DNA of 64,000 nt from Rhodococcoides fascians A25f (lineage in GTDB: Bacteria; Actinomycetota; Actinomycetes; Mycobacteriales; Mycobacteriaceae), in the NCBI RefSeq assembly GCF_000760935.2, contig NZ_CP049744.1:5549501-5613500 (forward strand). Direction: 5' to 3'. The position numbers were made by a program, and so were the translations under genes. Position 1 is the first letter of the stretch. Each line of letters starts with the position of its first letter. The notes beneath the pieces were generated by a model, which was not told the origin of the DNA, made no database searches, and saw only the letters and a program-made list of their open reading frames with translations. Shown piece by piece: positions 4,336-54,039 of the stretch.

Positions 4336-6215
4336 AGTGCCTGGTCCGACCTGCCCGTCTGAGCAAACTGCGTCCGATGCAGCTCCTCGTAGCGGCCTCC
4401 CGCCGCGAGGAGCTCGTCGTGCGTGCCTCGCTCGGCGATTCGCCCGTCCTCGATCACCAGGATCACGTCGGCTGCCCTGATGGTCGACAGTCGGTGCGCG
4501 ATCACCACCGAGGTCTTCCCTTCCAACGCCTCGGACAGAGCCGCCTGCACCGCGGCCTCGGACGTGGAATCCAGTGACGCCGTGGCCTCGTCGAGAATGA
4601 CGACCCGTGGCTGCGCGATCAGCAACCGCGCGATCGTCAGGCGCTGACGCTCACCACCGGAGAGCCGGTATCCACGTTCACCGACAACCGTGTCCAGGCC
4701 GTCGGGCAGGGAACGAACGAGATCTGCGAGCCTCGCCCTCGACAGGGCATCCCACACTTCGTCGTCGGTGGCATCGGGCCTGGGCAACAACAGGTTGGAC
4801 CGGATGCTCTCGTGGAACAGATGACCGTCCTGGGTCACCATTCCGACTGTGCCGCGGACCGATTCGGCCGTCAGATCTCGCACGTCGATACCGCCGAGGC
4901 GGACGGCGCCGCCGTCGACGTCGTACAGGCGGGCAATCATCTGCGCAATCGTGGATTTGCCTGCACCGGAGGTCCCGACCAACGCCACCATCTGGCCGGG
5001 CTCGGCGCGGAACGACACACCGTGCAGAACCTGTTCTCCGCCGCGCGAATCCAAGGTTGCCACCTCTTCCAGAGAGGCGAGCGAAACCTTGTCCGCAGAG
5101 GGGTACGCGAACCGAACATCGTCGAGTTCGACGGCCACCGGCCCCGCAGGCAGGGTCTTCGCATCGGGCTTGTCGGTGATGAGCGGAACGAGATCGAGCA
5201 CCTCGAAGACCCGCTCGAAACTCACCAGTGCGCTCATCACCTCGACGCGCGCACTCGCCAGCGCGGTCAGGGGAGAGTAGAGCCGCGCAAGCAGAAGCGA
5301 CAGTGCCACAACTGAACCCGGGTCCAGTGACCCCCGGAGGGCATAAAAGCCGCCCAAGCCGTACACCACGGCCAGAGCCAGTGCCGAGACCAGCGTCAGT
5401 GCCGTCACGAACACCGTTTGCACCATGGCACTGCGAACGCCGATGTCGCGCACGCGCCGGGCGCGTACCGCGAACTCGACCGATTCCTGCTCGGGATGAC
5501 CGAACAGCTTCACCAGCGTCGCGCCGGGAGCCGAGAATCGCTCGGTCATCTGCGTGCTCATCGCCGAGTTGTGCGCTGCCGCTTCACGCTGCAGCCGAGC
5601 GAGGCGTCGACCCATCCGTCGCGCGGGAAGCACGAACACCGGCAGCAGAATCAGCGCGAGAAGCGTGATCTGCCAGGAAATTCCGATCATGACCACCAAC
5701 GTCAACGCCAACGTCACCAAGTTGCTGACGACCCCGGACAGCGTGGTGCTGAATGCGCGCTGCGCTCCGATCACATCGTTGTTGAGCCGGCTCACCAGCG
5801 CACCGGTGCGCGTCCGCGTGAAGAAGGCGATCGGCATGCGCTGGACATGGTCGAACACCGCCGTCCGCAGATCCAGGATCAAGCTCTCGCCGATGTTCGC
5901 CGAGAGCCACCGATTGATCAGACCGACCACGGCGTCCACCAGAGCGATCGCCGCGATGGCGATTGCCAGCAGCACCACCACGCGCAGCTCTCGTCCGTCC
6001 ACGATGGCGTTCACCACTCGGCCCGCCAGTACCGGCGTGGCCACCGCGAGAACAGCGGAGGCCACGCTGAGCACCAGGAACCCGCCCAGAGCGCGACGAT
6101 GCGGTGCCGCGAACGTCAGGATCCTGCGGGCCGTCTCCTTCGAGAACGACGACTGGGTATCGGGCCTGTTCATCGACCGATACATCTGGTTCCAGGCGGT
6201 CATCTCCATGCTCAT
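4257..6215 (-). CDS. ABC exporter, fused membrane and ATPase domains
   Basis: A 652-residue half-transporter with an N-terminal six-helix exporter domain (about residues 30-330) and a C-terminal nucleotide-binding domain. Visible motifs are Walker A GTSGAGKST (near 412), the signature LSGGERQRLT (near 516) and Walker B VVILDEATASLDS, followed by the H-loop IAHRLST. It probably works as a homodimer exporting lipids or drugs; the substrate is unknown. The start is ATG (MSMEM), with a second possible ATG two codons later. A MerR/SoxR-like promoter lies 36-66 bases upstream. The extra C-terminal tail (about 40 residues after the NBD) overlaps the end of the convergent lipoprotein gene. Confidence 0.9.
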   Translation of the reverse strand: MSMEMTAWNQMYRSMNRPDTQSSFSKETARRILTFAAPHRRALGGFLVLSVASAVLAVATPVLAGRVVNAIVDGRELRVVVLLAIAIAAIALVDAVVGLINRWLSANIGESLILDLRTAVFDHVQRMPIAFFTRTRTGALVSRLNNDVIGAQRAFSTTLSGVVSNLVTLALTLVVMIGISWQITLLALILLPVFVLPARRMGRRLARLQREAAAHNSAMSTQMTERFSAPGATLVKLFGHPEQESVEFAVRARRVRDIGVRSAMVQTVFVTALTLVSALALAVVYGLGGFYALRGSLDPGSVVALSLLLARLYSPLTALASARVEVMSALVSFERVFEVLDLVPLITDKPDAKTLPAGPVAVELDDVRFAYPSADKVSLASLEEVATLDSRGGEQVLHGVSFRAEPGQMVALVGTSGAGKSTIAQMIARLYDVDGGAVRLGGIDVRDLTAESVRGTVGMVTQDGHLFHESIRSNLLLPRPDATDDEVWDALSRARLADLVRSLPDGLDTVVGERGYRLSGGERQRLTIARLLIAQPRVVILDEATASLDSTSEAAVQAALSEALEGKTSVVIAHRLSTIRAADVILVIEDGRIAERGTHDELLAAGGRYEELHRTQFAQTGRSDQALQGAGTTVDGSSSVAAASIGVNPSIA

Positions 6216-6302: not shown

Positions 6303-8618
6303 TCAAGCCGCCGCGGATGCTGCCACCGGTTCCAGCGCGAGCGCCAGAATGTCGGCGACGTCGGTCATCGGTCGGACGTCCAACGCTTCCAGCACTTCTG
6401 CGGGCACGTCGTCCAGATCCGGTTCGTTGCGAGCCGGAATGAACACCGTCTTCAGCCCCGCTCGTTGCGCAGCGAGCAACTTCTGCTTCACCCCGCCGAT
6501 CGGCAGCACCCGACCGTTCAACGTGACCTCACCGGTCATGCCGACATCCGATCGCACCGGCCGTCCGGTGGCCATCGACACCAGTGCCGTCACCATGGTC
6601 ACGCCTGCCGACGGGCCGTCCTTCGGCACCGCGCCCGCCGGAACGTGCACGTGAATGCTGCGATCGAGCGATTCGGGCGTGACACCGAATTGTGCTGCGT
6701 GCGAACGTACATAGGACAACGCGATCTGCGCGGATTCCTTCATCACATCGCCCAGCTGACCGGTGAGCTTCAACCCGGGATCGCCGTCGGTGGAGGCCGC
6801 CTCGATGAACAGCACATCGCCGCCGAGTCCGGTGACCGCCAGACCCGTTGCCACACCCGGCACTTCCGTTCGCTCGTGCGCCTCGGGCGTGAAGCGTGGA
6901 CGACCGAGGTAGGTCACCAGATCCGGCTCGTCGATCTCCAGAACGTCGGCGGTACCCGCGAGTTTCGTCGCCACCTTACGTAGGGCCTTTGCCAACAACC
7001 GCTCCAGCTGCCGCACCCCGGGCTCGCGGGTGTAGTCGGCAGCGATCTTGCGCAGTGCGGCGTCGGTCACCGTCACCTCCTCGGACGTGACTGCTGCCCT
7101 GTCCATCTGACGAGGAAGCAGGTAGTTCCGCGCGATGACGACCTTGTCGTCCTCGGTGTATCCGTCGATGGTCACCAGTTCCATGCGATCGAGCAACGGC
7201 CCGGGAATCTGATCGATCACATTGGCCGTGGCGAGGAACACCACGTCGGACAGGTCGAGATCCAGATCGAGGTAGTGATCACGGAACGTGTGGTTCTGCG
7301 CCGGGTCCAGCACCTCGAGCAGTGCGGCACTCGGGTCGCCGCGGTAGTCCGAACCGACCTTGTCGATCTCGTCCAGCAGCACAACGGGATTCATCGATCC
7401 CGCCTCGCCGATGGCCCGCACGATTCGGCCCGGCAGTGCGCCGACGTAGGTGCGACGGTGCCCACGGATCTCGGCCTCGTCTCGAACGCCACCGAGAGCG
7501 ACGCGCACGAAGGTACGTCCGAGCGCACGTGCAACAGACTCGCCGAGTGAGGTCTTGCCCACCCCGGGTGGGCCCGCGAGCACCATGACGGCACCGGATC
7601 CGCGCCCACCGACGGACTGCAGGCCCCGTTCGGAGCGTCGCGCACGGACGGCCAGGTACTCCACGATCCGATCCTTCACATCGTCGAGTCCGTGATGATC
7701 CGCGTCGAGAACGGCACGCGCAGAATCGATATCGGTGTTGTCGGTCGTGGTGTTGTTCCACGGTAGGTCGAGCACGGTGTCGAGCCAGGTTCGGATCCAG
7801 CCCGATTCCGGACTCTGATCACTGGCGCGCTCCAGCTTGCCGACCTCGCGGAGCGCTTGTTCGCGCACCTTCTCGGGCAGGTCGGCGGCCTCGACGCGGC
7901 CACGATAGTCGTCGGCACCGTCGGGCTCGTCCTCGCCGAGTTCCTTGCGAATGGCGGCCAGCTGCTGCCGGAGCAGGAATTCCTTCTGGGTCTTTTCCAT
8001 CCCCTCGCGTACGTCGCCGGAGATCTTGTCGTTCACCTCGACCTCGGCGAGATGCGCCTTGGTCCACTCGATCAGAGAGTCCAGACGCGTTGCCACATCC
8101 GGGGTTTCGAGAAGGTCGCGCTTCTGCACGTCGGTGAGGTAGGACGCATATCCGGCCGTGTCGGCGATGGCACTCGGATCGGTGAGCTTGTTGACCGAGT
8201 CGATCACCTGCCAGGCGTCTCGGCGTTGCAGCATCGCCACGACGAGCTGTTTGTACTCGGCCGCAAGGGCTTTGAGGTCATCACTGGCGGTCACGTCCGG
8301 CACGGGCTCCGCCTCCACCCACAGGGCAGCACCGGGACCGCTGACTCCGTGGCCGATATGCGCGCGGCGCGTGGCCTTGATGACGGCGGCCGGTCGTCCG
8401 TCGGCCAGGCGGCCCATCTGCACGATCGTCGCGAGGACTCCGTACGCGGCATAGCGGTCTTCCAGACGGGGTGCGACGAGCAGCGTGCCGTCGTTGCTGG
8501 CCTTCGCCGCATCGACGGCGGCGCGCGCGGCCTCGTCGAGTTCGACGGGCACCACCATTCCGGGCAGGACTATCGGGTCGGTCAGGAACAGTACGGGGAC
8601 ACGAACGGTTTCGGTCAC
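6303..8618 (-). CDS. lon: ATP-dependent protease Lon
   Basis: A 771-residue cytoplasmic AAA+ serine protease that degrades misfolded and regulatory proteins. The order is: N-terminal LAN substrate-binding domain, AAA+ module with Walker A GPPGVGKT (near 350) and Walker [10 protein letters not shown], then the protease domain with catalytic Ser in KDGPSAGVT (near 669) and Lys in [10 protein letters not shown] (near 712). I chose the GTG at 8618 because GGAGGAG lies four bases before it. A longer TTG start at 8651 would place that ribosome site inside the gene. A separate LON-domain-only gene is at 32880-33518. Monocistronic; a strong hairpin separates it from the upstream DJ-1-type gene. Confidence 0.97.
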
Positions 8619-47801: not shown

Positions 47802-48904
47802 AGCTCACCTCACGCCGCGTCCCACGGCTGCTCCCCAAGGATGCACCGCCGGATCTGCGCGGACGCGGACGCCCGGATCGCTCGATGCAGCTCCTCGGCA
47901 CGTTTCTCAACGGGTACATGCAGGCGGCTGCCGGCGCGGAGTACAACGATGCCGTCGCTGGACACAACCCCGATTCCGCGTTGCGATTGGTCGTCACAGA
48001 ACGCGAGATCGTCGCCGAGGACAACGATGTCGCTGCCCTCACCCTCGCGTCGCCGACGGGAGAGCAGCTGCCGATCTGGCATCCGGGCTGCCACCTCGAT
48101 CTGCACCTACCGTCGGGCCGCCGTCGGCAGTACTCCCTGTGCGGCAACCCATCCGACCGCAGTTCCTATCGCATCGCGGTGCGCCGAATCCCCACCGGCG
48201 CAGGCGGTTCCATCGAGATGCACGGACTGCAACCCGGCACCGAGGTCACTGTTCGCGGCCCCCGCAACGGTTTTCCCTTCGTCGGCGACGGCAGCGCACT
48301 CTTCATCGCCGGTGGGATCGGAATCACTCCCATCATCGCGATGGTCCGTGCCGCAAGGATTCTCGGCATGGACTGGCAGTTCGTCTACTGCGGTCGCTCC
48401 CGCGACACGATGCCCTTTCTCGACGAGATCGAGAGCTGGGAATCGGACCGCGTGTTCATCCGGACCGACGATGTGCACGGATACCCCGGTGAGGGCGAAC
48501 TGCTCGAGCGCGCCCCGGCCGGCGGTGCCGTCTATTGTTGCGGCCCCACCCCCATGCTCGACGCCGTCCGTCGCGACTTCCGTCAGTGCCCCGCCACCGC
48601 ACTGCATTTCGAGCGCTTCGGCCCGCCGCCGATTCTCGACGGCCAACCCTTCGAGGTGCAGCTGATCAGCACCGGAGCTGTGCTCGACGTAGCCGCAGAC
48701 GCCTCCGTACTGACCGCGGTCAAGGAACAGAAGCCCAATATCGCGTACTCGTGCCAGCAGGGCTTCTGCGGTACTTGCAAGGTGCGTGTGCTTTCCGGTG
48801 AGCCCGAGCACCTCGAAACGCGATTGACCCCCGAAGAGCAGCGCGATCACATGCTCATCTGCGTCTCCCGCTCACGCAGCGGGCGTCTCGTACTCGATCT
48901 ATAG
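47798..48904 (+). CDS. PDR-type flavin/2Fe-2S oxidoreductase
   Basis: A 368-residue phthalate-dioxygenase-reductase-like protein. Flavin-binding RRQYSLCGNPSD, nucleotide-binding FIAGGIGITPIIAMVRAA and YCCGPTPML, then a C-terminal plant-type ferredoxin with cluster cysteines in SCQQGFCGTC and LICVS. It passes electrons from NAD(P)H through flavin to a partner, most likely the diiron-type protein encoded just upstream (GTGA overlap). An N-terminal extension of about 65 residues precedes the flavin domain. Confidence 0.9.
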   Translation: MKLTSRRVPRLLPKDAPPDLRGRGRPDRSMQLLGTFLNGYMQAAAGAEYNDAVAGHNPDSALRLVVTEREIVAEDNDVAALTLASPTGEQLPIWHPGCHLDLHLPSGRRRQYSLCGNPSDRSSYRIAVRRIPTGAGGSIEMHGLQPGTEVTVRGPRNGFPFVGDGSALFIAGGIGITPIIAMVRAARILGMDWQFVYCGRSRDTMPFLDEIESWESDRVFIRTDDVHGYPGEGELLERAPAGGAVYCCGPTPMLDAVRRDFRQCPATALHFERFGPPPILDGQPFEVQLISTGAVLDVAADASVLTAVKEQKPNIAYSCQQGFCGTCKVRVLSGEPEHLETRLTPEEQRDHMLICVSRSRSGRLVLDL

Positions 48905-49843: not shown

Positions 49844-50779
49844 TCAGGGGACCAGTACCAGCTTGTGACGGGTGCGTGGGGTTCGCTCCCATGCACTCGC
49901 GACCTCTGCCAGTGGCACGTTCTCGTATTCCACTGCGAGCTGCCCGGTAACGGCCCAGTCGGTGAGGGTGCGATACGCCTGCGAGGTTGCATCGGGTCCG
50001 TAGTGCATCGGCATGAAGCCGACGATGCTCGCCCCGAGTGATCGTAGGAGCTGCGCTGGAACGGTGACCTCGGCACCGGCTCGGTCGCCGATCTGTACCA
50101 GACGAACGAGCCGGTTGCCGGCACGTAGCGCGGCCAGAGCGACTGCGCCCCAGGCGTAATCGACGATCACATCGGCCCCGGCAGATGCCTGCCGAATGGC
50201 CGAGCTCAGCTCGTCGACGCTGCTGTCTCCGATGGCAACCGTCGCCGTGGCCCCGAGATCACGGGTGGATTCGAGCGCGGCCTCATCGCGTCCCACGACC
50301 GTGATCGATCCTGCGCCGAGCAACCGCGCAGTCTGCACCGCGAGGCGGCCGACCACCCCGGTACCTCCGAGGATCACCACGTTCTCCCCTGGCGTCATGC
50401 GACCCCCATGGGTCAGTGGCATCAGTGCAGCGAGGCCGGCATTGCCCAGCGTCGCGGCGGTCGAGAAGTCCAGCCCGTCGGGTAGTTCGATGAGCGACGT
50501 CGTCGGTACCAACGCCTGCTGCGCCATCGAACCGTAGGGCGGGACGGGCGGGGAGAAGTACACTCGCCGACCGTCCGACGTCGTACCGACGCCTTCGATA
50601 CCGCTCACGGTCGGAAGGGACTTCGGGCTCAAATAGTGCGTGCCGGAAGCGATCACCACGTCGACTGCATTGAGCGTTGCGGCCGCAACGTCGATGACCT
50701 CCATACCCTCGGCCGGCGTCGGCTCGGCGTGATCGGCGTACCTCGGCACTCCGAACTCGGTCAGTACTGCTGCTTTCAT
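49844..50779 (-). CDS. Zinc-free MDR/quinone oxidoreductase
   Basis: A 311-residue medium-chain reductase with Rossmann motif VVILGGTGVVGRLAVQTA and no zinc-ligand cysteines. GroES-like N-domain MKAAVLTEFGVPRY. ATG 50779. Divergent from a TetR gene with a perfect 20-base operator between them, so it is the likely target of that repressor. Reaction probably NADPH-dependent reduction of an enone, quinone or aldehyde. Confidence 0.9.
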   Translation of the reverse strand: MKAAVLTEFGVPRYADHAEPTPAEGMEVIDVAAATLNAVDVVIASGTHYLSPKSLPTVSGIEGVGTTSDGRRVYFSPPVPPYGSMAQQALVPTTSLIELPDGLDFSTAATLGNAGLAALMPLTHGGRMTPGENVVILGGTGVVGRLAVQTARLLGAGSITVVGRDEAALESTRDLGATATVAIGDSSVDELSSAIRQASAGADVIVDYAWGAVALAALRAGNRLVRLVQIGDRAGAEVTVPAQLLRSLGASIVGFMPMHYGPDATSQAYRTLTDWAVTGQLAVEYENVPLAEVASAWERTPRTRHKLVLVP

Positions 50780-50805
50780 ATCCACCCCTTCGACGAATTG
50801 GCATT

Positions 50806-50825
50806 CACTGAATCTGGATTCAGTG
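50806..50825. promoter_or_regulatory. TetR operator, perfect dyad
   Basis: CACTGAATCTGGATTCAGTG has perfect 9-base arms around a 2-base centre. It lies 27 bases from the MDR start (minus) and 42 bases from the tetR start (plus), and TGAATCNNGATTCA-like dyads are usual for TetR proteins next to such reductases. Confidence 0.85.
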
Positions 50826-50866
50826 TGTATCGTGACGGCAGAGGTGTCAACAGGAGGTAGAAAGCG

Positions 50867-51454
50867 GTGGCAGCCACCACAAGGGCGCAGCAGGCCGAAC
50901 AGACCCGAAACGAGCTGGAGAGCGCGGCCTGCGTCGTGTTCGCCCGATCCGGCTATCTCAACACCAAGATCGTCGACATAACCAGACAGGCGGGCCGGGC
51001 AGCGGGGTCGTTCTACAACCACTACTCCGGCAAGGACGAACTGCTGTTGGCGCTCGCCGAGCAGATCGGTGTGGATGCCGACGTCATCGTCGCCGCCCAG
51101 GACCCGACTGCGCGTGAGCACCCGACGATGCGGCCCCACGTCGAGGTGTTCTGGCAGTTGTTCACTCGACACCGCGTGGTGATCGATGCCCTCCGCGATG
51201 CAGCGCTGGTCAATGCGGACTTCGCTCAGCGAGTACAGCAATTCACACAGGTTCAGTTCGAGCCGTGGGTAGACCGCCTCGCGAATTTCGAGAAGGCAGG
51301 CGTCGAGCTCCCGGCATCCCCTGCCACCACCGCGATGCTGATCGGCAGCGCGGCGGAGAACTTCGCCCGGCTGTGGCAGGGCTCGCCCGAGGACGGTCTC
51401 GACGCTCTGGTGACGTTCGTCGATCGAGGAGTCTTCGGGCCTGCCGCTCAGTGA
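50867..51454 (+). CDS. TetR-family transcriptional regulator
   Basis: A 195-residue regulator with HTH ELESAACVVFARSGYLNTKIVDITRQAGRAAGSFYNHYSGKDELL (about 16-60). GTG start with AGGAGG nine bases upstream. It is divergent from the MDR gene and probably represses both through the dyad at 50806-50825. Its 3' end overlaps the convergent LLM monooxygenase by 7 bases. Confidence 0.92.
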   Translation: MAATTRAQQAEQTRNELESAACVVFARSGYLNTKIVDITRQAGRAAGSFYNHYSGKDELLLALAEQIGVDADVIVAAQDPTAREHPTMRPHVEVFWQLFTRHRVVIDALRDAALVNADFAQRVQQFTQVQFEPWVDRLANFEKAGVELPASPATTAMLIGSAAENFARLWQGSPEDGLDALVTFVDRGVFGPAAQ

Positions 51455-52716
51455 GCCAGGTGCCCGCGAAGCGTCGATGAGGTGTAGTCCGCACGAAAGA
51501 GACTGCGCTGCTGCAGGATAGGGACCACCTGATCGACGAAGTCGGTGAGCGAGTCCGGGTAGCGCGGGCACATCAGGTTGAATCCGTCGGCACCGCGACC
51601 GATCCACGATTCCATCTCGTCGGCGATGGACTCCGGTGTACCGATCATCGTTGCGTGCCCGCCGCCGGCAGCCAGCGTGCCGAGCAACTCACGCACGGTG
51701 GGGGCGTCCTTCTCGACGATGCGCAGAATCGTCTCGTAGCGACCCTGCGGTCCGGTGAACTCTGCTGCCGGCGGTAGCGGCGGCACCGGTTCATCGAGTT
51801 CCCAAGCAGCACAGCCCTGCCCGGTGAAGGTCGACAACATTGCCAGTGACTGCTCGGTAGGCAGTAGCTGATCCAGTTCGGCCTTCTTGCGTCGGGCCTC
51901 GTCCATCGTCGATCCGATGTACGTCACCAAACCCGGCATGATGCCCACTGCCGCACTGTCTCGGCCCGCGTGGACGATGCGCGCCTTCACGTCGTCGTAA
52001 TAGCTCTGCGCTGCAACGAGATCGTAGGCGACGGCATAGATCGCCTCGGCGTACTTCGCAGCGAGATCACGACCCGGCCCCGACGCCCCGGCCTGGAACA
52101 GCACCGGCCGACCCTGCGGTGAACGCGGCACCGTCAACGGACCGTCGACGCGAAAGTGTTTGCCGTCGTGATCGATGGCATGCACCTTGGCCGGGTCCGC
52201 ATACGCTCCAGCGCGATCGAGCGTCAACGCGTCGGCATCCCACGAATCCCAGAGCGCCAGTGCAGTATCGACGAACTCTTCGGCGCGGGCATAGCGCTCC
52301 TCACGAGCCGGGATGACATCCATCCCGTGATTGCGTGCCTCGGCGTCGAACATGGAAGTGACGACGTTCCAGCCCGCCCGGCCACCGCTGATGTGATCCA
52401 ACGACGCCAGCATGCGCGCGGCATGGAACGGCGTGTAGAACGTCGAGGACACGGTGGTGACCAGCCCGATATGGGTGGTCGCTCTGGCCATGGCCGACAG
52501 CGCGGTGATCGGTTCGAGAAACCAGGTCCCTGCGCCTGCCGGGTCTCGCACCGAATGTCCGTCGGCGAAGAACACCGCGTCGAACTTTCCCCGTTCGGCG
52601 AGCTGCGCAAGTTCCTCGTAGTAAGAGATGTTGCCCAGGTCCTCCACTCGCGAATCGGGATGACGCCACGCCGCGCTGTGGTGACCGCAGCCGTAGAGAA
52701 AAGCGTTGAGGTGCAT
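51448..52716 (-). CDS. NtaA/SnaA/DmoA-type FMN-dependent monooxygenase (LLM)
   Basis: A 422-residue luciferase-like monooxygenase of the NtaA/SnaA/DszA/DmoA group, which oxidise C-N or C-S bonds of small molecules with FMNH2 delivered by a separate reductase. Typical segments are AWRHPDSRVEDLGNISYY at the start, FFADGHSVRDP, ISGGRAGWNVVTS and RGADGFNLMCPRYPDSLTDF near the end. ATG one base after the SDR stop codon, so it is the second gene of the operon behind the TPP riboswitch. The substrate is unknown; the riboswitch suggests a thiamine-related compound. Confidence 0.9.
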   Translation of the reverse strand: MHLNAFLYGCGHHSAAWRHPDSRVEDLGNISYYEELAQLAERGKFDAVFFADGHSVRDPAGAGTWFLEPITALSAMARATTHIGLVTTVSSTFYTPFHAARMLASLDHISGGRAGWNVVTSMFDAEARNHGMDVIPAREERYARAEEFVDTALALWDSWDADALTLDRAGAYADPAKVHAIDHDGKHFRVDGPLTVPRSPQGRPVLFQAGASGPGRDLAAKYAEAIYAVAYDLVAAQSYYDDVKARIVHAGRDSAAVGIMPGLVTYIGSTMDEARRKKAELDQLLPTEQSLAMLSTFTGQGCAAWELDEPVPPLPPAAEFTGPQGRYETILRIVEKDAPTVRELLGTLAAGGGHATMIGTPESIADEMESWIGRGADGFNLMCPRYPDSLTDFVDQVVPILQQRSLFRADYTSSTLRGHLAH

Positions 52717-52717
52717 C

Positions 52718-53479
52718 TCAGTCCTTGACCAGGCCGCCGTCGACCACCAGATTCTGACCGGTCACCGACCGCGCCCACGGCGAGGCGAAGAACAGCAGGG
52801 CGTCGGCGAACTCCTCCGGGGTGGTGACCCGTTGCAGCGGGGTCGAGGCCGCAATGAAATCGAACACCTCGGCCGGAGTGGCGGCACTGGCGTCGGTGGT
52901 GCGCAGCAGTCCACCCGAGACCATGTTGACGGTGATGTTGTCTGCGCCGAGGTCTGCGGACAGAGTCCGGGTCAGCGAGAGCAGTGCGGCCTTGGACGCG
53001 GTGTAATCGTGGTACGGCACCACCGGATTCTGAAACAAGTTGGTGCCCACGTTGATGATTCGGCCGAAGCCCGCCTCGCGCATACCCGGCAGAGCAGCCT
53101 GCGTGGTGAGCAACGCTGCACGGACACTGCCGCGCAGCTGAGCGTCGAAGCGGTCCCAGGTGATGGTGTCGGCCTTGGGCCGGGCATCACCGTCGAAGGA
53201 GAAGTCGGCCAGCGCGTTGTTGACGACAGTGGTGATCGGAGTGCCGAAATGCTCACGTGCCGAGTCGAACACCGTGGCCACCGCGCTCTCGTCCGTCACG
53301 TCACCCTGAACCGCGAATGCACTTTTGCCGAGGCGATCGGCCAGCGCTTCGGCGGCATCCTTGCTGTTGCGGTAGTCGATCACCACGCGTGCTCCCTCAC
53401 CGGCGAAAGCAGCGGCAATCGCTGCTCCCAGTCCGCGGCCGCCGCCGGTGATCAACACCGTCTGCTCGTCGAATTTCAT
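52718..53479 (-). CDS. SDR-family oxidoreductase in a TPP-riboswitch operon
   Basis: A 253-residue FabG-like short-chain dehydrogenase: TGGGRGLGAAIAAAF cofactor loop, VVNNALAD in place of the usual NNAG, and YTASKAAL. Thirteen residues before the catalytic Tyr the expected Ser is Thr (INVGTNLFQN). ATG 53479 (MKFDEQTV) with GAGGCGAGG upstream; the longer frame would run through the riboswitch. First gene of a two-gene unit with the LLM monooxygenase. A CCTC/GAGG hairpin (53483-53503 region) could hide the ribosome site. Substrate unknown. Confidence 0.9.
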   Translation of the reverse strand: MKFDEQTVLITGGGRGLGAAIAAAFAGEGARVVIDYRNSKDAAEALADRLGKSAFAVQGDVTDESAVATVFDSAREHFGTPITTVVNNALADFSFDGDARPKADTITWDRFDAQLRGSVRAALLTTQAALPGMREAGFGRIINVGTNLFQNPVVPYHDYTASKAALLSLTRTLSADLGADNITVNMVSGGLLRTTDASAATPAEVFDFIAASTPLQRVTTPEEFADALLFFASPWARSVTGQNLVVDGGLVKD

Positions 53480-53538
53480 GCGCCTCGCCTCTCGTTCGAG
53501 GTCGGGACCGTCACGAGGGACAGGAATACCGAACGTCA

Positions 53539-53614
53539 CGACATTCCCTTCGCTGGTCCTAACCAGATCAGGTTCGACGGGTGTGATCTCAGCCCTGCCG
53601 GGCACCCCGTGTCG
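53539..53614 (-). promoter_or_regulatory. TPP (THI-box) riboswitch
   Basis: Minus-strand aptamer with every conserved THI element in order: P1 CGACA (53614-53610) pairing TGTCG (53543-53539), GGGGTGCC, the GGGCTGAGA core, ACCCG, GAACCTGATCTGGTTAG and ACCAGCGAAGGGAA. This is a near-consensus thiamine pyrophosphate sensor. It lies 59 bases upstream of the SDR start, on the same strand, so the SDR-LLM operon should be shut off when TPP is abundant, probably at translation because the SD lies next to a possible hairpin. Confidence 0.95.
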
Positions 53615-53724
53615 CGCTCGACTGTACCCATCGGCCTCGGCAAGGCGCTGCATTGCCGTCGATACAGCTCTCTAGCGCGAGTGATAGACACCCGAATACG
53701 ACGATGACAAGTTATTGTGCCGCC

Positions 53725-54039
53725 ATGGCCGAACGCGTCTACCTGGAGTATCGCCTCGACGAGAACGTGATTTTCGTACTCGACCACCGCACGGTCGAAG
53801 CGTTCGACGCCGCCGTGAGGACCGCAGCCGGTGGGCGCTGCCGATGGCACGTCGATCAGCTCGGCGTGGACGCGAAGCCGACGCGAGACGGCACCAAGAT
53901 CGTCCTCGGTCTGCGCGCATCCGACGGCAGCATCGGCTACTCGGGCGACCGTATGAAGTTCACCGTGACCGACGAACAGCTGCCGCATCTGCTGGCGTTC
54001 TTCGACCGCGCGAAGGCAGCAAGGGACCTCAGCCGATGA
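53725..54039 (+). CDS. Hypothetical protein, 104 aa
   Basis: I do not recognise the family. A small alpha/beta protein (VYLEYRLDENVIFVLDHRTVEAFDAA; DQLGVDAKPTRDGTKIVLGL; QLPHLLAFFDRAKAARDLS) with no cysteine cluster beyond Cys38 region and no signal. ATG 53725 is one choice; ATG 53704 is in frame seven codons upstream. Divergent from the riboswitch operon; 11-base convergent overlap with the GH13 gene. Confidence 0.65.
   Translation: MAERVYLEYRLDENVIFVLDHRTVEAFDAAVRTAAGGRCRWHVDQLGVDAKPTRDGTKIVLGLRASDGSIGYSGDRMKFTVTDEQLPHLLAFFDRAKAARDLSR

Follow-up and report, generated by a model that had tools for sequence, protein, structure and literature searches.

A TPP riboswitch-linked oxidoreductase and monooxygenase operon in Rhodococcoides fascians with a possible role in recovery of the thiamine pyrimidine

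Introduction

The thiamine pyrophosphate (TPP) riboswitch, or THI element, controls a regulon that includes thiC, tenA-thiXYZ, thiM and thiV. TenA and YlmB act in pyrimidine salvage, in which 4-amino-5-hydroxymethyl-2-methylpyrimidine (HMP), the pyrimidine half of thiamine, is recovered from the degraded vitamin; the TenA route is hydrolytic. Here, we analyze a 64,000-nucleotide stretch of the genome of Rhodococcoides fascians A25f (contig NZ_CP049744.1, positions 5,549,501 to 5,613,500 of the forward strand), referred to below as the window, in which an aptamer of the same kind lies upstream of genes coding for a short-chain dehydrogenase/reductase (SDR) and a luciferase-like monooxygenase (LLM). 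Unlike the known members of the regulon, these two genes have no assigned thiamine function.

To our knowledge, none of the described enzymes related to the LLM, namely CmoJ (YtnJ), NtaA, EmoA, BdsA/DszA, RcaE and DmoA, is TPP-regulated. CmoJ releases an aldehyde (PMC10863075), and RcaE strips the ribityl chain from riboflavin (PMC12746152). The SDR can be compared with the SDR-type pyridoxal 4-dehydrogenase (NF047923), which belongs to the same superfamily and has a heteroaromatic aldehyde/alcohol as its substrate; the window protein gives a secondary match to this model but, at 152.4 bits, falls far under the cut-off of 325 and is not a member.

A search of the open-licence literature, in which hits may be missed, retrieved no paper in which an LLM monooxygenase or an SDR is linked to a TPP riboswitch, and none on oarX in connection with thiamin. 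Rodionov et al. are said to have listed in 2002 an SDR, oarX, as THI-regulated, and this may be the SDR studied here. While the system itself is not of a new kind, the searched literature yielded no function for its two enzymes.

Results

An earlier note on this DNA had placed a TPP aptamer at 53614-53539 of the minus strand and called for a search with Rfam model RF00059. This search gave a full-length cmscan match of 69.9 bits (gathering score, 54.3; E value, 1.1e-11), the interval of which contains the one first proposed. The locus is organized as follows:

53619-53527, minus strand: TPP riboswitch aptamer, RF00059 (cmscan, alignment; P1 formed by CGACA/TGTCG)
53526-53480, minus strand: leader from the aptamer to the SDR start, in which no intrinsic terminator was detected
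53479-52718, minus strand: SDR oxidoreductase, 253 amino acids (NF006393/PRK08642, "3-oxoacyl-ACP reductase")
52716-51448, minus strand: predicted LLM-class flavin mononucleotide (FMN)-dependent monooxygenase, 422 amino acids (TIGR03860, NtaA/DmoA family)

The genome (5.9 Mb) has three TPP matches, of which the window aptamer scores highest. Another match precedes tenA and genes read as thiY, thiX and thiZ (with TenA confirmed by a profile), and the third, which at 52 bits is under the cut-off, precedes genes read as thiO, thiS and thiG (with ThiG confirmed in the same way). A consensus scan of positions 51300-54000 revealed neither an intrinsic terminator nor a σ70-like promoter. The SDR reading frame remains open in the 5′ direction through the aptamer (52718-53653, minus strand, 311 codons in total); an automatic caller could put the start codon inside the riboswitch.

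The SDR scores 437.5 bits against NF006393 (PRK08642; cut-off, 292), and the LLM, whose fold matches that of its family, scores 530.3 bits against TIGR03860 (cut-off, 279.7). The two genes are separated by a single base (52717); both the scores and the coordinates agree with the earlier description of an SDR gene followed, one base further, by an LLM monooxygenase gene. Residues Y159 and K163 of the SDR, the ends of the YxxxK active-site motif, are invariant in 23 orthologue rows; Thr146 occupies the usual position of the catalytic Ser. An AlphaFold model of the LLM has a mean predicted local distance difference test (pLDDT) score of 91.2, and the solved folds nearest to it are those of BdsA, NtaA, CmoJ, EmoA and RcaE. 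Among the matches listed, the closest named proteins belong to Rhodococcus sp. 1R11 and IEGM1428 and to Rhodococcoides fascians. PF00296 is the sole domain in all 120 LLM relatives listed (out of 5098 at E ≤ 1e-100), and no fusion proteins were seen among these 120.

We determined how often the aptamer accompanies the two genes in other genomes. Sixteen of 121 genomes of the same family contain an LLM orthologue (67-100% identity), and the aptamer is present upstream of 15 of them, locus L011 being the exception; in L016, it directly precedes the LLM gene, with no SDR gene in between. In 14 fetched loci of LLM relatives with ca. 50% identity, no upstream aptamer was found. Such a distribution (15/16 versus 0/14) disfavors chance association. 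The TPP-linked LLM clade also has its own sequence signature, e.g., MFDxEARNHG, as well as YAVAYD at a site where most of the ca. 50% relatives have FTAQRT.

A scan of contigs from named genomes confirmed 453 relatives, and the best 80 loci (L036-L115), which span Actinobacteria, Betaproteobacteria and Gammaproteobacteria, were retained and scanned with a model derived from 16 aptamers. A coding-strand aptamer was found upstream in 70 of the 80, so the linkage extends beyond one genus. TPP aptamers precede homologues of the two genes in several lineages, contrary to one of the outcomes that, according to the earlier note, would have refuted its reading. The gene nearer to the aptamer is that of the SDR in 65 of these 70 loci and that of the LLM in the other 5. 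SDR and LLM genes are adjacent in 15/16 family loci and 68/80 named loci; since several loci come from the same genomes, the two collections overlap and their counts are not independent. We conclude that TPP control of the operon is well supported.

The SDR gene is distributed more widely in the family. Orthologues (E ≤ 1e-50) are present in 34 of the 121 genomes, and 18 of these lack an LLM orthologue. When the best 30 of the 34 loci were fetched, 27 contained the aptamer, including 13 of the 14 SDR-only loci; in L116 and L118, which belong to the window's genus and have no LLM orthologue, the aptamer is followed by the SDR gene alone. At five loci from Dietzia, Nocardiopsis merdipullorum and one metagenome-assembled genome (L073, L077, L078, L096 and L112), it is the LLM gene that stands alone behind the aptamer. 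The operon put forward in the earlier note is thus real, conserved and linked to a TPP aptamer, but its reading as a tight pair is too strong, because each gene also occurs without the other.

Genes next to the operon were inspected in the same loci. In all 19 proteobacterial loci (within the 6 kb fetched), a sodium:solute symporter gene with a TPP aptamer directly upstream is present. Three scanned symporters match PF00474 above the cut-off, and three scanned against NCBIfam match the superfamily model TIGR00813 below its cut-off. A THI-regulated PanF-like symporter is named thiV (PMC2211319), and ThiV is described as the likely HMP importer of SAR11 (PMC11452348). One of the loci, L115 of Achromobacter pulmonis, contains two equally scoring TPP aptamers (1910-2015 and 5766-5871), which share a strand and lie at a distance of 3.9 kb; only the first is followed by a symporter gene. 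The doubling is due to either a duplication or an assembly effect.

In Pseudarthrobacter L072, ThiM- and ThiE-like genes are located between the aptamer and the SDR gene. In Yaniella L093, a second TPP aptamer (7320-7414) is found directly behind the SDR-LLM unit and leads genes read as ThiD, a major facilitator superfamily (MFS) transporter, ThiM and ThiE; the MFS protein is a candidate for the transport of a thiamine precursor. In Arthrobacter rhombi L088 (2215-4811), genes whose translations resemble an energy-coupling factor (ECF)-type transporter follow a TPP aptamer that is divergent from the SDR-LLM unit. In several genomes, then, the operon adjoins a TPP-controlled symporter, thiM/thiE or thiD, which is a likeness to the known TPP regulon.

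The thiamine gene content of operon-bearing genomes was also surveyed. ThiC is absent from, and ThiG is present in, all eight sampled genomes of the window's genus, and TenA was found in all six of the eight that were tested for it. The absence of ThiC together with the presence of ThiG predicts HMP auxotrophy, and reliance on salvaged pyrimidine is therefore to be expected in this genus. Family-wide, ThiG is encoded by 119 of the 121 genomes; the window genome also carries ThiM. Fifty LLM-bearing genomes out of the 80 named ones were sampled: ThiG is intact in 49 and ThiM in 22 (the partial or weak matches in G151 and G163 being scored as no intact ThiM), and a TenA match is present in 40. 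Both ThiC and ThiM are missing from 11 of the 50, two of which lack TenA too. ThiC remnants were seen in G139 (L076, Dietzia alimentaria), as a short match interrupted by an in-frame stop, and in G166 (L113, Kocuria tytonis), in three pieces; both were scored as lacking intact ThiC, while G170, with two pieces at contig ends, was scored as having it.

Several leaders offer a clue to the mode of switching. In Dietzia loci L073, L077 and L078, a Shine-Dalgarno (SD)-like GAAGGG motif is located within the aptamer, and the LLM ATG is 6 nt after AGGGA; the aptamer of L059 (R. erythropolis group) includes GGAGG, and the SDR ATG chosen by the script is 7 nt after AGGGA. Formation of the aptamer in these four leaders should bury the SD motif, turning expression OFF in the presence of TPP. 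Many other leaders have, ahead of the SD, a CCTTCGC-like element that is complementary to GCGAAGG of the aptamer. The complementarity test (24 leaders entered and 23 scored, the L045 linker being too short) gave a combined p of 2.7e-8 for this pairing and a weaker p of 0.001 for pairing of the SD itself; the 23 leaders are related, and these p values are rough. A folding test was carried out with 26 leaders (27 were prepared and L050, with an unmatched aptamer pattern, was dropped; a fixed stretch was used for the 5 of the 26 without an SD motif), and SD accessibility was lower with the aptamer enforced in 18 of them.

Other results of the two tests count, though not decisively, against such a mode. 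The window leader showed no significant switching pairing in the complementarity test (p of 0.57 and 0.53), and its SD accessibility rose from 0.06 to 0.21 with the aptamer enforced; over the 26 leaders, folding revealed no SD occlusion upon aptamer formation (mean accessibility of 0.32 free and 0.30 bound). Switching OFF at the level of translation is likely for the operon and may apply to the window copy.

As for the surroundings of the window operon, no flavin reductase that could serve the LLM was found in the operon or among the 8 neighbors first scanned. A 2Fe-2S/FAD/NAD reductase gene (PF00111, PF00970, PF00175) with no known link to the LLM is located 2.5 kb away from it (47840-48904, plus strand). 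A TetR-type regulator gene (50867-51454, plus strand) is convergent with the LLM gene, their ends overlapping by 7 bases. The gene divergent from the regulator (region 49844-51454) is quinone-oxidoreductase-like, under the family cut-off, and no thiamine link was seen for either gene.

Discussion

We tentatively propose that the SDR and LLM genes form a TPP-repressed operon that recovers the pyrimidine half of thiamine, a reading we consider plausible while stopping short of calling it probable. When TPP is scarce, the aptamer would be empty, and both enzymes would be made; upon TPP binding, expression would drop, most likely at the level of translation. The FMNH2-dependent LLM would act on a thiamine vitamer that is substituted or damaged, oxidatively cleaving a C-N or C-S bond beside its pyrimidine CH2 and producing 4-amino-2-methylpyrimidine-5-carbaldehyde. 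The SDR would reduce this aldehyde, including any that is imported or made elsewhere, to HMP, which could then be used by ThiD and ThiE. The aldehyde release by CmoJ and the ribityl removal by RcaE, two of the nearest folds of the LLM, count in favor of this chemistry. The OFF direction, the pyrimidine branch and both enzyme reactions are inferred; they go beyond the aptamer, gene order, association across lineages, thiamine-gene neighbors and lack of ThiC in the sampled genomes of the genus, which the data show directly. The proposed goal is the same as that of TenA/YlmB salvage, whereas the route would be oxidative and reductive rather than hydrolytic.

The earlier note had suggested salvage of thiazole, pyrimidine or oxidized thiamine pieces. 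The salvage context is borne out by the TPP-switched symporters, by the ThiM, ThiE and ThiD neighbors and by the absence of ThiC from the genus. Within this context, the evidence leans toward the pyrimidine branch, which is moderately supported, while recovery of thiazole through ThiM did not prove general.

A number of observations weigh against the pyrimidine recovery reading. ThiC is intact in 29 of the 50 LLM-bearing genomes; R. jostii and R. opacus, for instance, have ThiC alongside the operon. In nine Achromobacter loci (five of which were checked with Rfam), neither the SDR nor the LLM gene is preceded by its own aptamer, the only one there being that of the neighboring symporter; together with L079, they make up the named loci without an aptamer. 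The linked symporter is likened to SAR11 ThiV by kind and TPP control, not by sequence comparison. The ThiM and ThiE genes next to the two Micrococcales-type loci (L072 and L093) fit a thiazole role too, and the occurrence of the SDR and the LLM without each other behind the aptamer weakens a strict two-step model. Finally, loss of ThiC, seen at the family level in 10 of 16 genomes with the operon versus 18 of 105 without it (Fisher p of 3e-4), is unrelated to the presence of the operon among the 28 genomes of Rhodococcus sensu stricto (7/22 with the operon versus 3/6 without, Fisher p of 0.63). The family-level association may thus reflect clade structure, and we have set it aside as support.

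The occurrence of each gene alone raises an alternative that we regard as rather unlikely: the enzymes could act independently, the SDR making HMP or another precursor from an external aldehyde and the LLM attacking a different thiamine-related compound, with use during thiamine shortage in common. This would account for the 13 of 14 fetched SDR-only loci and for the five LLM-only loci in which a single gene follows the aptamer, as well as for the finding, based on crude gene calls, that the gene next downstream is on the opposite strand in 10 of the 11 SDR-only stretches examined more widely. It is at odds with the adjacency of the two genes in nearly all family loci and in most of the named ones.

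The thiamine half at issue could instead be the thiazole, with the LLM opening or dealkylating a thiazolium compound and the SDR reducing a thiazole aldehyde to hydroxyethylthiazole, to be phosphorylated by ThiM. Such a role would suit the presence of ThiM in the window genome and the gene arrangements of L072 and L093. Yet it cannot be the general one, because 28 of the 50 LLM-bearing genomes are without intact ThiM; moreover, the 49 of them that have ThiG should make thiazole themselves, and the symporter of the proteobacterial loci resembles, by kind, a pyrimidine importer. We therefore view a thiazole role as distinctly unlikely.

The enzymes could also, upon induction at low TPP, detoxify or degrade an antimetabolite of thiamine, for instance, a bacimethrin-like pyrimidine, but this appears improbable. 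Xenobiotic degradation is common among LLM enzymes, and an antivitamin would be expected to lower TPP and hence induce the operon; the neighbors identified are, however, import and synthesis genes (efflux and resistance genes were not searched for). That the aptamer was stranded by accident near unrelated catabolic genes, as the lack of any thiamine label in the SDR and LLM family names might suggest, is very improbable given that the link is kept across lineages despite changed flanking genes.

Returning to the proposed recovery of pyrimidine, candidate substrates are few, which makes the function directly testable. The operon probably represents an undescribed step in bacterial scavenging of part of vitamin B1, with two enzyme families recurring behind a TPP switch across bacterial lineages, even though thiamine metabolism is regarded as well charted. 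It is conceivable, if doubtful, that an oxidative pyrimidine-recovery route parallel to TenA operates in several lineages of Actinobacteria and Proteobacteria, helping bacteria that have lost ThiC. If the reaction is found, bacteria would have one more vitamer to share or compete over, and the NtaA/RcaE family of flavoenzymes would probably gain a new substrate.

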